Shown here: in pieces, positions 584-7,231 of the stretch
How positions within the stretch are numbered: the stretch's first letter is position 1
How the letters are laid out: each line of letters starts with the position of its first letter
DNA from: Candidatus Pacearchaeota archaeon
GTDB taxonomy: Archaea > Nanoarchaeota > Nanoarchaeia > Pacearchaeales > GW2011-AR1
Direction: 5' to 3'
NCBI GenBank assembly: GCA_002690445.1
Contig: NZER01000416.1
Location: forward strand, 1 to 9,739
Length of the DNA: 9,739 bases
The notes under the pieces: generated by a model
Databases searched by the model: none
What the model was told of the DNA's origin: nothing
The model's input: the letters and a program-made list of their open reading frames with translations, nothing else
Made by a program: the position numbers and the translations under genes

Positions 584-1044
584 ATTTATATTCAAACCCG
601 TTAATCGAACACAGTCGGCGACCGCAAAATTTCCGCAAAATTGAAGACGCTTCATTGTCTCAAACCAAGTGCAACTCTCTGTGCGGCGACGAGGTGACAA
701 TTTTTGTCAAGCTAGCTACTTCACAGCACTGCGGAGCGTGGGAACTGACCTTTCTGTCAGACATATCATTCACCGGGCAATCGTGTTCTGTCGCAACCGC
801 TTGTGCTTCATTAATGACCGAGGCGCTTGTGGGGTTGAGTTGCGCTAGTGCTATCCGCAAAGCTGAACACCTAAAACAGGTGGTTCAAGGTCTGGCCACG
901 GACTCATCTCTCGGCACTAGGGGGTTGGAAGACTTCGCCCAAATTGCTGAAGGGCTTAAGGGGTTCCCAGGACGGTTAAGCTGCTCGCTTCTCGGGGTGG
1001 ATGCGTTTCTGGATTGCTTGGAGGGCGTTTCCAATGGTGGATGA
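580..1044 (+). CDS. SufU/IscU-like iron-sulfur cluster scaffold protein
   Basis: Seen: 154 residues matching the NifU N-terminal/SufU fold along the whole length. They open with LYSNPLIEHSRRPQNF, like the Y-x-x-x-I-x-D-H-x-x-x-P-x-N opening of the family. The three scaffold cysteines are present: C35 in CGD with Asp37, C69 in GQSCSVATA followed by a TEAL helix, and C135 in FPGRLSC. C69 and C135 are 66 residues apart, which fits SufU (insert present) rather than IscU, and the IscU histidine before the third cysteine is absent. Known: these proteins assemble Fe-S clusters or, for SufU, accept sulfur from a cysteine desulfurase via zinc. A GGAG lies 5 nt before the ATG, and the start overlaps the PAPS-reductase-like gene. 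No desulfurase is in the window, so host SufS/IscS would have to supply sulfur (inference). SufU-like rather than IscU-like is moderately sure. Confidence 0.82.
   Translation: MNLYSNPLIEHSRRPQNFRKIEDASLSQTKCNSLCGDEVTIFVKLATSQHCGAWELTFLSDISFTGQSCSVATACASLMTEALVGLSCASAIRKAEHLKQVVQGLATDSSLGTRGLEDFAQIAEGLKGFPGRLSCSLLGVDAFLDCLEGVSNGG
1020..1025 (+). promoter_or_regulatory. Ribosome binding site deciding the nuclease start
   Basis: GGAGGG lies 8 nt before the ATG at 1034, inside the end of the Fe-S scaffold gene. It favours 1034 over the in-frame ATG at 1001, which would overlap the upstream gene by 44 nt. Confidence 0.7.
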
Positions 1045-1522
1045 AAACGGTTTTTCTGAACGCGACAAAAGAATAATTGGACGGTATCGGCGATTTCACG
1101 AAAAGCATGACGCCAAACATGAAACCGCCGAGGTTCAATCAACCCCACCACGGATCAAGTTAAGCCAAAAGGACTACGGGGATAATCCGCTAGAGGCAAC
1201 TGAACAGAGAAAACTAGCAAACTATTTGGACCGTCTTGGGGTACTTTGGAACCACTGTCCGAATGAGCGCAAAGTCTCACCAATTCAGGGAGCACGGTTG
1301 AAAGCAGCTGGAGTCAAATCAGGGGTGCCCGATGTCAAAATCTATACCCCGTCGCCAGTCAATGGAGCCGGCACCGCTATTGAATTGAAACGAAAGAAGG
1401 GTGGTCGGGTTTCTGAAACGCAGCGCGCGTGGCTCGACCGCTTGAAGTCGTATGGGTGGAACACCTATGTTGCGCGCGGTGCGGATGACGCTATCGGCTA
1501 CCTACAGAAATTGGGGTTTTGA
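1034..1522 (+). CDS. VRR-NUC domain nuclease
   Basis: Seen: 162 residues. A charged N-terminal stretch of about 50 residues precedes a PD-(D/E)xK-type core: Glu57 in an E-x-x-x-x-x-x-Y-L helix, then WNHCPNERK, G-x-R-L-K-A-A-G-V-K-S-G-V-P-D with Asp100, the AIELKRKKG strand with Glu117 and Lys119, and Q130 followed by W-L-x-x-L. This is the standard motif series of small phage VRR-NUC proteins. Known: the VRR-NUC family acts on branched or other structured DNA; stand-alone phage versions are thought to serve in replication or recombination. The start at 1034 is supported by GGAGGG and an 11-nt overlap with the Fe-S scaffold gene. Co-transcription with the sulfur genes is likely, but no functional link is shown. 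Family assignment is confident; the exact DNA substrate is unknown. Confidence 0.88.
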   Translation: MVDENGFSERDKRIIGRYRRFHEKHDAKHETAEVQSTPPRIKLSQKDYGDNPLEATEQRKLANYLDRLGVLWNHCPNERKVSPIQGARLKAAGVKSGVPDVKIYTPSPVNGAGTAIELKRKKGGRVSETQRAWLDRLKSYGWNTYVARGADDAIGYLQKLGF

Positions 1523-1524
1523 GA

Positions 1525-1716
1525 ATGAAAAGGTTCGTTTCAATGGTGGGGGTGCTAATATTTTTTTTCACGGTGCTAGCAAATGGATGCGACGAAGACC
1601 CGATCGACCGTTGCGACGCTTATTGGGGAGCCGCTTATGTTAACCGAGGCCAAACGAAAGTGCTCCAACGGGCTGGTGCTGCTTCGCGGGTATCGCAGTG
1701 GATGAATGAAGGGTAA
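1525..1716 (+). CDS. Possible small lipoprotein or exported peptide
   Basis: Seen: 63 residues beginning MKRF, then a strongly hydrophobic segment (residues 5-19) and Cys22 after L-A-N-G, which looks like a signal peptide with an imperfect lipobox (Ala rather than Leu/Val at -3). The ATG follows the nuclease stop by 2 nt, with a GGGG 8 nt upstream as a weak ribosome binding site. The last third is antisense to the endolysin's C-terminal coding region (1635-1716), including the codon for its third zinc-ligand histidine. That part therefore may not be under selection as protein here. Small lipoproteins are common in phages (outer spanin, superinfection exclusion), but nothing here identifies a role. 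It may also be a chance open frame. Confidence 0.4.
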   Translation: MKRFVSMVGVLIFFFTVLANGCDEDPIDRCDAYWGAAYVNRGQTKVLQRAGAASRVSQWMNEG

Positions 1717-2054
1717 ATTCCGATCCCAAGTCCCCCGTATTCGCGTCCGATGTTCTCCAGCTCCACGAAAAGTCTTAGAATGTTGACCGGCGTTCTAAGC
1801 CCACGCCGAGCGAAGGTAATGTCAGCGGCTTTGTTATGCAGATGGTAGGAGCCGCTGGTGCTTCCAATGGACGGGGATGAATTATAGGAGGGGCAACGGT
1901 ACCCACTGTTGCATGTAAGTGGCACCCCGATTCGGGATCTGCACTTGTCTAAAACTTTCAACAAGTCCGGGTCCATTGAATCCCCTCCAAGTCCACAACA
2001 AGGACAGTTGAATTCCGAAGCCCTCCAGTATTGTCCGATCCAGTCGTTAGGCAC
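1635..2054 (-). CDS. M15 family peptidase, putative endolysin
   Basis: Seen: 139 residues with the Peptidase_M15_3 motif series. A cysteine-rich start (residues 15-23, FNCPCCGLG) is followed by S-G-Y-R-C-P with Arg53, then S-x-H at His71, A-D-I with Asp78, and FIHCDTR with His119. His71, Asp78 and His119 are the expected zinc ligands, and the seven-residue His-Asp spacing matches the family. Known: such enzymes cut D-Ala-containing or L-Ala-D-Glu peptide bonds in peptidoglycan and serve as phage endolysins. There is no signal peptide, so release would depend on a holin; the holin-like gene is about 550 nt upstream on the same strand. The start is GTG, with GAGG 6 nt upstream and an 8-nt overlap with the preceding small gene. 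It is the last gene of the minus-strand unit. Confidence 0.87.
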   Translation of the reverse strand: MPNDWIGQYWRASEFNCPCCGLGGDSMDPDLLKVLDKCRSRIGVPLTCNSGYRCPSYNSSPSIGSTSGSYHLHNKAADITFARRGLRTPVNILRLFVELENIGREYGGLGIGIYPSFIHCDTREAAPARWSTFVWPRLT

Positions 2055-2256
2055 TTAAATCCTCGCCGCAATCCAGGTCCGTCAATAGGCTCCTAAGGTC
2101 TTGCCGAAGGTCAAGCCGCTTTGAAAAAGCAACCCCGTCGTCACCGCGTACAGAAAATAGCTCCGCGAGCTTTTGAATGATGTTCTCGGCTTGCTTGTTT
2201 TCGCCGAGCAGTTCTAAACGCATCGCTTTAAGCTGTTTTAGGACAACCGGTCCCAT
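2047..2256 (-). CDS. Small helical protein, paralogue B
   Basis: Seen: 69 residues, predicted largely helical and charged, with no signal peptide or membrane segment. It aligns without gaps to the protein encoded just upstream: over 30 residues from E-L-F-S to L-T-D-L, 11 are identical and most others are conservative. The two are therefore probably products of a tandem duplication. The ATG has AAGGAG 5 nt upstream and overlaps the upstream gene's end by 19 nt; its own end overlaps the endolysin start. I do not recognise the family. Its place between holin-like and endolysin genes makes a lysis-related role possible, but that is context only. Confidence 0.72.
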   Translation of the reverse strand: MGPVVLKQLKAMRLELLGENKQAENIIQKLAELFSVRGDDGVAFSKRLDLRQDLRSLLTDLDCGEDLSA

Positions 2257-2435
2257 TGCTGCTCCTTGATCCCTAGATCAGTAAATAGTGTTTTAATCTC
2301 ATCCCTAATAACGCATCTCCGAAGTTCAGCGTCGGGTTGAATACTTGTAAGTGAGAATAATTCGACCAAAAGGGAAACAATTCTATCCGCTGGCTCTGAC
2401 TTATTTAGAAATTGGTCCAGGGATAAATTTACCAT
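2238..2435 (-). CDS. Small helical protein, paralogue A
   Basis: Seen: 65 residues from the ATG at 2435, rich in Leu, Asp and Glu, with an SLLVELFSL helix and a C-terminal LFTDLG segment shared with the next gene's product. A longer version from a TTG at 2465 is possible, but that codon lacks a ribosome binding site, whereas the ATG has AGGAG 10 nt upstream. The ATG also overlaps the TAA that ends the -1 reading frame of the upstream holin-like gene (ATGGTAA), a typical coupled arrangement. No known family recognised. The duplicated pair could form a hetero-oligomer or regulate lysis, but nothing in the sequence shows this. Confidence 0.72.
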   Translation of the reverse strand: MVNLSLDQFLNKSEPADRIVSLLVELFSLTSIQPDAELRRCVIRDEIKTLFTDLGIKEQQWDRLS

Positions 2436-2605
2436 GTCAATCGAACTCCTACGTTTGCTCGCCAATCTTGAACAGTGGCTTCAACTTCACCGAATAAAGA
2501 ACCATTTTCCCCAAGTGGGGTTTGCACCGATCCAACAAGTGCCAGCTGCTCCAATCCATTGTCCCAATTGAAGTCGTCAGCCACTGCCAAACCGATGCTC
2601 GCTAC
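2429..2605 (-). CDS. Candidate -1 frame extension of the holin-like gene
   Basis: Seen: in the -1 frame relative to the holin-like gene, translation stays open for 58 codons from the slippery site to TAA at 2429-2431. The peptide is protein-like, not shadow-like: an acidic/aromatic stretch (ADDFNWDNG), then three alternating hydrophobic/polar segments suggesting beta-strands, ending V-R-L-T-W. No ATG exists in this frame; the only usable starts are a TTG (2588-2590) and a GTG (2582-2584), both without a ribosome binding site. Within the holin-like gene this frame has no standard start codon back to its preceding stop. The terminal TAA overlaps the next gene's ATG. A fused product would be 143 residues. 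Alternatives are reinitiation at TTG, or a one-base homopolymer error in the assembly that split one gene. Confidence 0.55.
   Translation of the reverse strand, partial: VASIGLAVADDFNWDNGLEQLALVGSVQTPLGENGSLFGEVEATVQDWRANVGVRLTW
2446..2450 (-). promoter_or_regulatory. Ribosome binding site deciding the paralogue A start
   Basis: AGGAG on the minus strand lies 10 nt before the ATG at 2435. It supports that start over the upstream TTG at 2465, which has no comparable site. Confidence 0.6.
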
Positions 2606-2611
2606 TTTTTT
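2602..2611 (-). other. Candidate -1 ribosomal frameshift site (A AAA AAG, then TAG)
   Basis: On the minus strand the last two sense codons of the holin-like gene, AAA AAG, together with the preceding A form A AAA AAG in the correct zero-frame phase. The stop TAG follows directly. Known: A AAA AAG is among the most efficient bacterial -1 slippery heptamers (dnaX, IS elements). I see no convincing upstream Shine-Dalgarno stimulator and only weak potential stems downstream. Confidence 0.5.
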
Positions 2612-2859
2612 ACAGCTGTGCCCACTGGTTGGATTGCGTCTTGTATCCTCGCAGCTGCCACAATTGATCGCCCGAGCTCCTGCTTTCCTTTAGTCCAGGC
2701 TCTAGCACCAACATAGCCAAGTCCCGCGAGAATACTCCCCACGGTTCCCAATATCTGAAGGGTCACTTCGCTAGTGATAAGACCTGAACTTAAGACCCCT
2801 CCACAAACTATTGAGATCAAGGTTAGCCAAAATTCTGAAGTGTGTATTCCGTTTTTCAT
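2602..2859 (-). CDS. Holin-like small membrane protein
   Basis: Seen: 85 residues. Residues 9-27 (hydrophobic, EFWLTLISIVCGGVLSSGL region) and about 33-52 (ILGTVGSILAGLGYVGARAW region) form two likely transmembrane segments joined by a short loop, and a basic/amphipathic tail of about 30 residues follows. Size, two-helix layout and position between an anchored coiled-coil gene and an endolysin are those of a phage holin. The N-terminal TSEFWLTLI pattern is common in small two-helix phage holins. The ATG has AGGAG 6 nt upstream. Known: holins oligomerise in the inner membrane and time lysis by letting the endolysin out. The gene ends in a slippery heptamer followed by TAG, so a longer C-terminally extended form may also be made. 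Holin function is inferred, not proven by a diagnostic residue. Confidence 0.68.
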   Translation of the reverse strand: MKNGIHTSEFWLTLISIVCGGVLSSGLITSEVTLQILGTVGSILAGLGYVGARAWTKGKQELGRSIVAAARIQDAIQPVGTAVKK

Positions 2860-2868
2860 TTTTTTCTC

Positions 2869-3198
2869 CTACCGTACAATTTCTTTTGCTGCCTCCCGTA
2901 GAATCTCTTTTCTTGCCTCCTCCTTCGCTTCTACCCGAGCAAAGTGCAGTCGCATGTCCTCACGCCACTCGCACAGGTCACGGTGAAAAGTATGAAGCTT
3001 CGTCATAACGTCGTTGACCTCATCTGTTAGGCCGACGACCTTATTCTCAAGCAAGACAATCCGCGTGTAGATATCTCCTCCGTTGCGTGCGGCTTCTCTT
3101 TTCTCATGTCGCTTTTCGAGCATTCTGAGGAGGGTAATAATTACAGCGAAGGACACTGATCCAGCACCCCCGGTTGCTAGGATCTCGGAAATCTCCAT
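2869..3198 (-). CDS. Membrane-anchored coiled-coil protein, possibly lysis-related
   Basis: Seen: 109 residues. A short N-terminus is followed by one hydrophobic segment (about residues 10-27, with GAGSVSFAVIITLL), then a basic cluster (KRHEKREAAR). The rest is a long charged helix (about 43-109) with heptad-like spacing, typical of a coiled coil. The basic residues after the membrane segment would favour the helix staying in the cytoplasm, which argues against a standard inner spanin (periplasmic coiled coil), though the layout otherwise resembles one. It lies 3 nt after the desaturase-like gene and 9 nt before the holin-like gene, and GGTGGG about 7 nt upstream may serve as ribosome binding site. 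No family is recognised with certainty. Confidence 0.7.
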   Translation of the reverse strand: MEISEILATGGAGSVSFAVIITLLRMLEKRHEKREAARNGGDIYTRIVLLENKVVGLTDEVNDVMTKLHTFHRDLCEWREDMRLHFARVEAKEEARKEILREAAKEIVR

Positions 3199-3201
3199 CG
3201 C

Positions 3202-4089
3202 TTAACCCACCATCCAATTAAACACGAAGCAGCTGACAAAAAACGTCGTGGGAACAATAATTGACCCCAACGCGAAAAGTGCCGCCCGTATTGGTTCTTC
3301 TTCGCCTCTTGCTTCTAATTTCTCACGGCAGTGAATCGCCGTTTTCCAAAATGAGTCAAAAAGCGTGTCAGCAAACGGGCAATACAGGTCGTAGAATTTT
3401 GAAACTGTACCAAGTTGGTCCCGATTATGTCGGTGGTGCTCTTTGTGGGTTTCTTCATCCAAAAGCCCAGAAACGTCAAGCAACCGAAGACCCAAATACA
3501 GCGGCAAAGAAAAGTGTGCTCGCCGTTCATTTTTGGGAACGTGGTAATATTCGTGAACGGGTTCAATTGCCGAAAACCAAAACAGATACCAGATCCACAG
3601 CGGCAGCAATTTGACGCCAAAAAATAGGACCGGTAAAAACCAAACGGCAAAATAAGCGACGCGACAACCTTTGGCTTGCATCACGAAGTTTAAGCGGTGA
3701 ACGAGCCAGTTCTTATAAATCTCTTTTGGATGGGAATAGTGGTGCAAATAAGCGACCAGAACACCGGGTTCCCACTTTTCGGTAGGGGTTTCCAAATACA
3801 GCGCGTGGGTAGTCATGTGACCCCACCCGAAGATAAATTGACTTAGGAAATAGCCGACCACGAAAGCGAGCACGTTCGTATGGACGGGAAATGCCGTAAT
3901 TGAAAAACCCACCGCGCATAGGACCGCAGCTGAAAGAAGCGCGTAGGTATATTTATTAAAGATCCACTTGGAATAGAACCACGGCTCTCTTTTCTGCCAC
4001 CCTTGCATGTGTTCGATGATCTCGCGCGTGTGTGGGCCATCTGCCAAGCACAAACGCTTTGCATCGGCTCGCATCCCCGCGTCCATCAT
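3202..4089 (-). CDS. Histidine-box membrane lipid desaturase/hydroxylase-like protein
   Basis: Seen: 295 residues with hydrophobic segments at about 47-67, 72-90, 145-172 (possibly two) and 268-290. Four histidine clusters are present: H91-M-T-T-H95, H116-H117-x-x-H120-P, H179-E-Y-Y-H183 and H215-K-E-H218-H219-R-H221, followed by a C-P-F-A-D-x-L-F-D-x-F-W ending. Known: such clusters bind a di-iron centre in integral-membrane fatty acid desaturases and hydroxylases. The order, and the last box followed by a Cys and an L-D-x-F-W-like segment, most resembles the TMEM189/CarF (Kua, plasmanylethanolamine desaturase) group, but this is memory-based and unsure. It would act on host membrane lipids. 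The ATG overlaps the upstream stop (ATGA), so it is translated with the virion/lysis unit. No ferredoxin or cytochrome b5 partner is visible. Confident on enzyme type, not on substrate. Confidence 0.75.
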   Translation of the reverse strand: MMDAGMRADAKRLCLADGPHTREIIEHMQGWQKREPWFYSKWIFNKYTYALLSAAVLCAVGFSITAFPVHTNVLAFVVGYFLSQFIFGWGHMTTHALYLETPTEKWEPGVLVAYLHHYSHPKEIYKNWLVHRLNFVMQAKGCRVAYFAVWFLPVLFFGVKLLPLWIWYLFWFSAIEPVHEYYHVPKNERRAHFSLPLYLGLRLLDVSGLLDEETHKEHHRHNRDQLGTVSKFYDLYCPFADTLFDSFWKTAIHCREKLEARGEEEPIRAALFALGSIIVPTTFFVSCFVFNWMVG

Positions 4090-4778
4090 CGCCGCGTGAC
4101 ACGCCGCACCTTCGGTCCTGAGTCGGCGACCTCGGGTAGACGTTCAATAAAGCGGTGAATGTAAATCACGCGCGCTTTCAGACCGGTCCCGAACTTCTCT
4201 TGGTTTCGCAAAACCTCGGAAAGAGGGAAAATACCGCTCGGAATATAGCGGCAGCAAGCGTAGGCGAGCGTCGGAAAGTCGTCGCGTCCTTCAATTAGAA
4301 AGCCAGTGGTAGTGTTTCCGCCGTTCATCCCTGGCTTATCATTGCACCCGCCGTTCCCGTCTTCGGAAAACGCCCACGTTAAAATATCGTGGTCTCTTAA
4401 CAGCGGCAAAATGTCATCTCCAGGTTCGGGTGCGATCTGCTCCCAATTTCCACTGTCGACCATCTTTTTTGCGTAGTCGTCCGACGAGTCATTCCAAGGG
4501 TCAACATCTGGAAAAACCACCTTCTTCCCCACAAGAGCAAAAGCCGCGTGGTGGAAAATTAGCGGGTCCCGATTTCCATCGACGGGGGGTAGCCGTGAAG
4601 GAGGGCCACCGTCCGGTCCTGGATCCAACTCTGCGTCCGTTGGTTCGGGTGCAGGATCAATCCCTTCACACATCTTGCCGTCAACAATTGCGTGAAATTC
4701 TTTATACTTCCACGTATAATGCTGGTGCTTCTCCGAGCGTTCAAAGCGAATTGAATCGTGGTCGTCTTTGTCAAACAT
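4086..4778 (-). CDS. Unrecognised phage protein in the virion gene block
   Basis: Seen: 230 residues, no signal peptide or membrane segment. The N-terminal 40 residues are rich in His, Lys and aromatic residues. Next comes an acidic, proline- and glycine-rich linker (about 41-70), then a probably globular part containing several Trp and five Cys (one pair adjacent), and a strongly basic tail (K-V-R-R-V-T-R-R). The ATG has GAGGGG 5 nt upstream and begins 11 nt after the preceding gene's stop; the end overlaps the desaturase-like gene. The family is not recognised. It may be a virion accessory protein or a cytoplasmic factor working with the membrane enzyme encoded after it; both are guesses from position. 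Confidence 0.75.
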   Translation of the reverse strand: MFDKDDHDSIRFERSEKHQHYTWKYKEFHAIVDGKMCEGIDPAPEPTDAELDPGPDGGPPSRLPPVDGNRDPLIFHHAAFALVGKKVVFPDVDPWNDSSDDYAKKMVDSGNWEQIAPEPGDDILPLLRDHDILTWAFSEDGNGGCNDKPGMNGGNTTTGFLIEGRDDFPTLAYACCRYIPSGIFPLSEVLRNQEKFGTGLKARVIYIHRFIERLPEVADSGPKVRRVTRR

Positions 4779-5644: not shown

Positions 5645-7231
5645 CTACAATTCAATCCAGTTTTGTGACGGGTTAAAATAGATGACGTTTGCGAGGTCGG
5701 TTCCGTGTCCGACTATCCGAACAAAGTCGCTGCCTCCGGTTGGAGCCGCTACGTCAATATTTCCGGTCGTCGTTTCTGAGACATAGACCGCGCCACCTTT
5801 AACGAAAGTCCCGGTCAAGTAGGTGGCACAGTCGAAGAAACCGCGAATTAGAACGCCGTGCGTCCCCGGTGTCGAACCCAACGCGATGCCGAGCAGCTGG
5901 CTCGCTCCGCTGGCTACTGCGTTAGCATCCGTGAGCGTCCAGGCTCCCGAAGAATTAAGGTAATACATCTTACCAGCGGTGAGCGACCCGCTACCAAATA
6001 GAACAACTTCCCCACCTCCGGTGTCGCCAGCTAAACCCGTTGGGTCGTGGTGAACGTCAGCGGCAACCTTTGGCGAGGCGGTCCCTACGCCAAACTTGCC
6101 ACCGGCGGTGATTCGTACCTTTTCAGTCAAGCCGGAGGAAGTAGCAATTTTGTGAGTGAAGAAAACCAGATCCGAGCCGGAGTCGTCGCCCGCGTCAAAG
6201 TCTTCGACAGCTTGTGCGGTGATTGCCGCGATAGTTTTTTCACCCGAGTTTATGTTTCCATCTATCGTGAACCACGAAACCGCTGGTGCGAATTCATCGG
6301 TGGCAACGCCGCCACCCATGTTCAAAGCAAGCCCGTCGCTGACTGCCGCAGCAATTGTCGTGCTGTCCGAAGTGTCGCTTTTCTTCAATTCAAGAAGGTG
6401 GGTCGGGGTCGTCGAGGAAGTGGTGCCGAGCATCACGCTTCCATCGTTGATAATGGTCATCCGCTCGGTGCATGTCGAAGAACCGTTCGGGCTTGTCCAG
6501 AAAGAAAGTTCGGTAGGCATATCGGTAGGGTCGCTTGCCGTGCCTTGCACCCGAGCTTCGATGCGCGCGCCTTCTTCCCAAGAATTACCGTCGTGACCGT
6601 GGAAAGTTACCTTTCCCAAAACCGCGTCATCATCTACCAAAGCTGGTGAAGATTCCGACCCGTCAGCTTTTCGGAGCACCAGCTTCGCCGCAGTCGCTTC
6701 GGTGTCGTGGTAGCAAGAAATAGTAGCCACCGCGTCGGCGTCTTCTTTCGCTATTTCAAGAGCCGTGTCAGGACTATTTGTTCCCAAGCCTAACGCATCG
6801 GTGAGCGTCGTCGGGTAAATGACATTGCTCCCATCCGTCCATCCCCCGGTGGTATTCACAGCGACAAAGTCCAAAGTCCCGTCACCGTCTTCGTAGGTCA
6901 CGGTAATATTAGTCTCGGTGTTGCCCGTCACCATTGCGCCGACAATGTCTTGAACCTCTTCGGTCGTCAGCTGGGTATTATCCGAGACAAAGTCCAAAGT
7001 CCCGTCACCGTCTTCGTAGGTCACGGTAATATTGGTTTCGGTGTTCCCCGTTACCATTGCACCAACGATGTCTTCCACTTCTTCGGTGGTTAAAGCACCA
7101 CCCCCGGTGGTCGGTTCCCACAAATTAGTTGTCGAGTTAAAAGCAAGAACCTGTCCGTCCGTAGGTGCGGTCGGGCTTACGTTCTTGTTAATGATTTGGG
7201 TGGCGTTTTGGCCTCTTTCAGTAATCGGCAT
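5645..7231 (-). CDS. Tail fibre / receptor-binding structural protein
   Basis: Seen: 528 residues. The N-terminal segment D-G-Q-V-L-A-F-N-S-T-T-N-L-W-E-P (25-40) is the short shaft motif found in many phage fibres. It is followed by two near-identical 36-residue units (47-82 and 88-123) starting L-T-T-E-E-V. The middle (about 140-400) is rich in Gly, Thr, Asp and Ser, with repeated G-x-G-T/S-x-S-P and G-x-V-x-x-G-T patterns (ALGLGTNSP, KFGVGTASP) that mark beta-helical, trimeric fibre shafts. The last 125 residues (G-K-M-Y-Y-L ... F-V-R-I-V-G-H-G ... V-I-Y-F-N-P-S-Q-N-W-I-E-L) form a compact C-terminal domain common in phage fibres. AAGGA lies 7 nt before the ATG. Known role of such proteins: host surface recognition. 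No peptidase or glycosidase motif seen. Confidence 0.82.
   Translation of the reverse strand: MPITERGQNATQIINKNVSPTAPTDGQVLAFNSTTNLWEPTTGGGALTTEEVEDIVGAMVTGNTETNITVTYEDGDGTLDFVSDNTQLTTEEVQDIVGAMVTGNTETNITVTYEDGDGTLDFVAVNTTGGWTDGSNVIYPTTLTDALGLGTNSPDTALEIAKEDADAVATISCYHDTEATAAKLVLRKADGSESSPALVDDDAVLGKVTFHGHDGNSWEEGARIEARVQGTASDPTDMPTELSFWTSPNGSSTCTERMTIINDGSVMLGTTSSTTPTHLLELKKSDTSDSTTIAAAVSDGLALNMGGGVATDEFAPAVSWFTIDGNINSGEKTIAAITAQAVEDFDAGDDSGSDLVFFTHKIATSSGLTEKVRITAGGKFGVGTASPKVAADVHHDPTGLAGDTGGGEVVLFGSGSLTAGKMYYLNSSGAWTLTDANAVASGASQLLGIALGSTPGTHGVLIRGFFDCATYLTGTFVKGGAVYVSETTTGNIDVAAPTGGSDFVRIVGHGTDLANVIYFNPSQNWIEL
6863..6970 (-). repeat. Fibre protein tandem repeat, second copy
   Basis: Encodes residues 88-123 of the fibre (LTTEEVQDIVGA to LDFV). 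It differs from the first copy at one residue (Gln for Glu at the seventh position). The repeat period is 123 nt. Confidence 0.9.
6986..7093 (-). repeat. Fibre protein tandem repeat, first copy
   Basis: Encodes residues 47-82 of the fibre (LTTEEVEDIVGA to LDFV). The two copies are highly similar at DNA level but carry several synonymous differences, showing an older duplication held under protein-level selection rather than a very recent one. Confidence 0.9.

Follow-up and report, generated by a model that had tools for sequence, protein, structure and literature searches.

Candidate programmed -1 frameshifting that would extend a holin-like protein encoded by phage-like DNA

Does the holin-like gene of this locus encode a single protein, or do some ribosomes leave its reading frame at the last codons and produce an extended form? 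The window (i.e., the whole stretch of 9,739 nt analyzed here) is phage-like, and its lysis region (3198-1635, minus strand) consists of the g109 gene, the holin-like gene, two small genes and a gene for an M15 endolysin. A heptamer known for ribosomal slippage lies directly in front of the stop codon of the holin-like gene, followed by an open -1 frame.

The holin-like gene (2602..2859, minus strand; ATG at 2859 to TAG at 2604-2602) encodes a protein of 85 aa. It has two hydrophobic segments with hydropathy peaks of 1.96 and 1.58 and a basic C-terminal tail with a charge of +5, and a model predicted from the single sequence consists of two helices (mean pLDDT 70.3, pTM 0.38). The features used for class II holins were observed, including a length below 150 aa, two transmembrane segments (the second of which is borderline) and a location near the endolysin, which is encoded downstream beyond the two small genes. 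No family was matched in PHROGs, Pfam or NCBIfam, known holins included. Thus, the protein is called holin-like only, based on its size, membrane pattern and neighborhood.

The 3' end of this gene reads GCT GTA AAA AAG TAG. As originally predicted, the heptamer A AAA AAG (2605..2611, minus strand) is in phase for -1 slippage and flush against the zero-frame stop TAG (2602..2604, minus strand), and the -1 frame then continues as an extension (2429..2605, minus strand) of 58 sense codons to a TAA (2431-2429) that overlaps the next ATG (2435) by 7 nt; both sequence and coordinates were confirmed. A heptamer of the X_XXY_YYZ type in phase near the zero-frame stop is what is expected of a dnaX-type site. 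In Escherichia coli, A_AAA_AAG is far more shift-prone than several related heptamers (PMC5009743), and it is present in 68 genes of this organism (PMC9307594). Three copies were found in the window (minus 4470, minus 2611 and plus 87), with downstream folds of -16.8, -31.1 and -25.7 kcal/mol, respectively. The copy at 4470 is also in phase, in the middle of a gene for a 230-aa protein and without a strong hairpin. Considering this second in-phase copy, the heptamer alone is not evidence of frameshifting.

The strongest evidence is a predicted stimulatory hairpin (2524..2598, minus strand), which was absent from the original prediction. It contains 29 pairs (9 of them G-U), has an energy of -31.1 kcal/mol and starts exactly 6 nt past the heptamer, so that a stable 3' RNA structure is predicted within the distance of approximately 5-9 nt expected of dnaX-type sites. 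The energy was computed in a 75-nt frame and spacers of 0-10 nt were compared, among which exactly 6 nt was the best. An equally stable fold at a spacer of 5-9 nt was obtained in 4 of 1500 dinucleotide shuffles and in 1 of 1500 shuffles of the codon order of the extension. Among the 9659 positions scored on each strand of the window, 1.2% (minus) and 0.5% (plus) have such a fold at that distance. The 98-nt fold had a z-score of -3.81 and was not equaled by any of 200 shuffles, whereas the 68-, 51- and 33-nt folds after the stop, which lack the 3' arm, were ordinary (z-scores of -0.29, 2.19 and 0.72). Among distinct stretches on the minus strand of the window, the hairpin ranks seventh in stability. 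Its complement folds at -10.8 kcal/mol versus -31.1 kcal/mol, the largest strand difference among 9663 positions, in line with a structure formed by the mRNA, as opposed to an inverted repeat of the DNA.

The -1 frame is open for 86 codons in all, back to position 2689. As 5000 dinucleotide shuffles left the frame open in 11% of cases, and as the zero frame beyond the TAG likewise lacks a stop for 50 codons, the openness of the -1 frame is weak evidence. On the other hand, the claim that the -1 frame has a protein-like composition was borne out by a codon score of 0.165, which is on par with real genes and which only 1.0% of 5000 shuffles reached. For comparison, 73 gene windows scored 0.158 +/- 0.137 and their off-frame readings -0.118 +/- 0.104, one of which exceeded 0.165 (the highest was 0.212 and the next 0.122). 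The other frames of the same region scored 0.056 (zero frame), -0.086 (+1 frame) or below zero (all three antisense frames). Coding in the -1 frame past the zero-frame stop, a further feature of dnaX-type sites, is thus indicated by 58 codons with a gene-like score. Gene spacing points in the same direction. Of the ten gene junctions on the minus strand, nine measure -19 to +11 nt, and the junction between the holin-like gene and the next gene is the single large one (166 nt); once the extension is counted, this gap becomes a 7-nt overlap like the neighboring junctions. With the hairpin 6 nt past the heptamer, the coding score and the filling of the only large gap, the original reading is strengthened, and we consider that this locus is probably best explained by programmed -1 frameshifting of the dnaX type on the last codons of the holin-like gene.

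Relatives of the locus were searched in several collections. No homolog of the extension or the holin-like protein was found in IMG/VR or, by tblastn, in phage records, and when the joined 143-aa product and the extension were compared with a set of 5.8 billion proteins, only the window's own 85-aa protein was returned. Scans with single proteins against IMG/VR and genome contigs, including those of IMG/VR with the extension and the holin-like protein, are limited in reach to close relatives; they also gave no match for the endolysin, g109 and the 295-aa protein encoded at 3202-4089 (IMG/VR) or for the latter protein (genome contigs). Neither the 295-aa protein nor the 717-aa protein of the window (g717) was matched in phage records, blastn of positions 1600-4100 against 50,697 phage records gave no match, and a junction pattern that allowed a variable A run found nothing. 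Relatives of the endolysin were identified, including 19 proteins at E <= 1e-8 (one with 99% identity across 81% of the query, seven with 67-71% identity) and 155 matching phage records, all below 60% identity. Nine of the 19 relatives were aligned with the window's endolysin, and this alignment gave no match in genome contigs and detected seven distant loci in IMG/VR, at which ten other window proteins (holin-like protein and extension included) had nothing better than E 0.03. A search for the SEFW motif together with A AAA AAG near the gene end yielded, among the matches listed, 23 of 120 pairs in which the heptamer was in phase and the reading frame uninterrupted up to its end, none of which was judged a holin. 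In one of the listed matches (L047) the stop is located 6 nt past the heptamer, and the product is unlike a membrane protein.

The extension might instead be a separate small gene, whose translation would restart after the TAG at a TTG 12 nt on or a GTG 18 nt on, or would begin at ATC 2668 inside the holin-like gene. It had been claimed that the -1 frame has no ATG and that its few alternative starts lack a ribosome binding site. The first statement stood, and the second held for TTG 2590 and GTG 2584, the two codons near the stop, whose Shine-Dalgarno (SD) pairing is weak (-2.7 and -2.9 kcal/mol) and which both sit in the 5' arm of the hairpin; it did not hold for ATC 2668, which follows a good AGGAG (-6.6 kcal/mol), CTG 2545 (moderate, -5.6 kcal/mol) and TTG 2440 (-6.8 kcal/mol), although ATC and CTG are non-standard starts, ATC being a rare start codon, and TTG 2440 leaves only 3 codons. 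TTG 2554 and GTG 2527 had energies of -4.0 and -3.1 kcal/mol, and those of neighboring gene starts ranged from -5.8 to -10.3 kcal/mol in eight of the nine scored (-3.3 kcal/mol in the ninth). A restart would suit a region in which neighboring genes overlap and may be coupled. However, the protein set that contains the 85-aa form gave no entry for the extension, and a separate gene leaves the combination of heptamer, abutting stop and hairpin at 6 nt unexplained, so that we regard it as unlikely. One former gene could also have been split by an indel in the run of As, through mutation in this phage or through a sequence error, which would make the extension a remnant or artifact. The break does fall in a homopolymer run and no relative shows the ancestral state, but the codon usage of the extension is still gene-like, and a random event would not bring a hairpin that beats nearly all shuffles to a distance of 6 nt. 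Moreover, the exact 85-aa protein is on record for five contigs in the 5.8-billion protein set, which argues against a one-off assembly error provided that these contigs are independent. An indel appears quite improbable to us.

We give slightly less credence still to the possibility that the hairpin acts between the holin-like gene and the next gene as a regulatory or processing element without coding function, accompanied by heptamer and open frame through coincidence. Such an element would agree with the strong, strand-specific fold and with the chance of 0.11 for an open frame, but neither the 6-nt spacing nor the codon usage would be expected from it. A terminator was rejected because the search of 1600-3300 returned two sites, neither of them at the hairpin and in a number no higher than in shuffles, and an Rfam family was rejected because 2300-2900 contained no Rfam match. 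It is highly improbable that the frames are joined by slippage of RNA polymerase on the A run or by readthrough of the zero-frame TAG. The A run is present and the zero frame remains open for 50 codons, but a large proportion of bacterial genomes shows selection against slippage-prone A/T runs at a length of nine nucleotides (PMC1088944), compared with six here, and for readthrough the zero-frame codon score is only 0.056 versus 0.165 for the -1 frame.

Under programmed -1 frameshifting, the hairpin 6 nt downstream would resist unwinding when ribosomes arrive at A AAA AAG, and some lysine tRNAs would re-pair one base back. The adjacent TAG would then be out of frame, and translation would go on for 58 codons to the TAA that overlaps the next start. 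Two products with 85 residues in common would result, one of 85 aa whose tail is basic and one of 143 aa whose tail is acidic. The extension has a net charge of -6 and contains no lysine and no cysteine, and it changes the net charge of the whole protein from +4 to -2. A probably beta-rich tail had also been proposed and found no support, as the single-sequence model of the extension (mean pLDDT 45.7) had no strands and was uninformative; because this model is unusable, such a tail is neither shown nor excluded. We infer that slippage occurs at a useful efficiency and that the acidic-tailed form alters the action of the holin. Lysis timing helps set phage burst size, and control of this timing by the long form is a reasonable hypothesis. 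In addition, ribosomes that have shifted may unfold the hairpin and favor initiation at the next gene (2238..2435, minus strand; 65 aa), whose AGGAG ribosome-binding site lies inside the extension. One could go further and imagine a translational lysis timer, in which the frequency of frameshifting sets the ratio of the 85-aa and 143-aa forms, the acidic form delays or tunes hole formation, and ribosomes in the -1 frame unfold the hairpin and turn on expression of the next gene. At present we consider this complete scheme rather doubtful.

The frameshift in E. coli dnaX yields a shortened protein, whereas here the shift would produce an extension past the abutting stop. The two signals share the A_AAA_AAG shift site (PMC5009743) and the position of a hairpin 6 nt downstream, which is stimulatory in dnaX (PMC11162774) and predicted here. 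The dnaX signal also includes a clear SD-like AGGGAG 10 nt upstream (PMC11162774), in contrast to the weak GUGGG of the holin-like gene (-3.4 kcal/mol). In phages, a -1 shift late in the first frame is used for the tail assembly chaperone of the lambda G/GT type, and the form with the C-terminal extension is made at a fixed ratio (PMC6316719, PMC3483164). However, tail assembly chaperone genes are located among tail genes before the tape measure gene, and the gene studied here is instead surrounded by g109, two small genes and the endolysin gene in the lysis region. Lambda S105/S107 is a dual-start holin; such holins owe their two forms to alternative initiation codons and vary at the start, as do, to our knowledge, the known dual-form holins, whereas here the difference would be at the end. 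Two holin forms per gene, as proposed here, have been described for 24.1/24.1* and 26/26* of phage SPP1 (PMC6316719).

Putative frameshifts near lysis genes have also been reported for Streptomyces cluster BI phages, such as those predicted near endolysins and nucleases in TonyStarch and in genes near holins in BI2 phages (PMC9671017). These are unverified GeneMarkS predictions from coding potential and are described as near holins, not stated to be in them; in the text sampled they come with no details of a frameshift signal (PMC9671017). In the literature sampled, to which most subscription journals do not belong, no described frameshifted holin was found, which is not proof of absence; the phage frameshifts or slippery sites assigned there to named genes are mainly in tail or capsid genes. 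In one of these papers a slippery site was sought between two lysin ORFs and none was present. The PRFect paper, as sampled, names tail assembly chaperones and hypothetical proteins, and the word holin is absent from its text (PMC10885494), and no holin appears in the first 300,000 of the 475,107 characters of a 2016 review of recoding (PMC5009743). Expression of the MS2 lysis gene has been linked to frameshifts within the coat gene, which is a different mechanism (PMC10885494; PMC5009743).

If the frameshift is real, programmed frameshifting would be operating in a new setting, the end of a holin, and would provide a novel route to a holin regulator. If the timer is real as well, one RNA signal would couple the ratio of holin forms to the expression of a downstream lysis gene. 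The signal is compact and, given that the protein set contains the 85-aa form and gave no entry for the extension, similar cases in other lysis regions may be overlooked.

Several neighboring genes deserve mention. The g109 protein (3198-2869, minus strand; 109 aa) has one N-terminal hydrophobic segment (peak 1.96) followed by a long charged remainder; by eye its layout is spanin-like or XhlA-like, and its family matches are weak and unconvincing. Next to it, the 295-aa protein (4089-3202, minus strand) contains several hydrophobic stretches and histidine clusters, which by eye are reminiscent of membrane desaturases or hydroxylases; it matched nothing in PHROGs, Pfam or NCBIfam and is odd company for lysis genes. 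Farther away are a tail-fiber-like gene (5645-7231, minus strand) and g717 (9721-7568, minus strand), which has C1q-like and CBM_4_9 domain matches and is probably a receptor-binding or fiber protein. A VRR-NUC nuclease (1001-1522, plus strand) is encoded on the opposite strand, so that two blocks of genes run toward each other and meet just beyond the endolysin gene. The two small genes beside the extension (2435-2047, minus strand) look like tandem diverged duplicates, and their 65-aa and 69-aa products share 31% identity over 51 aa (E 4e-7 in a single comparison).
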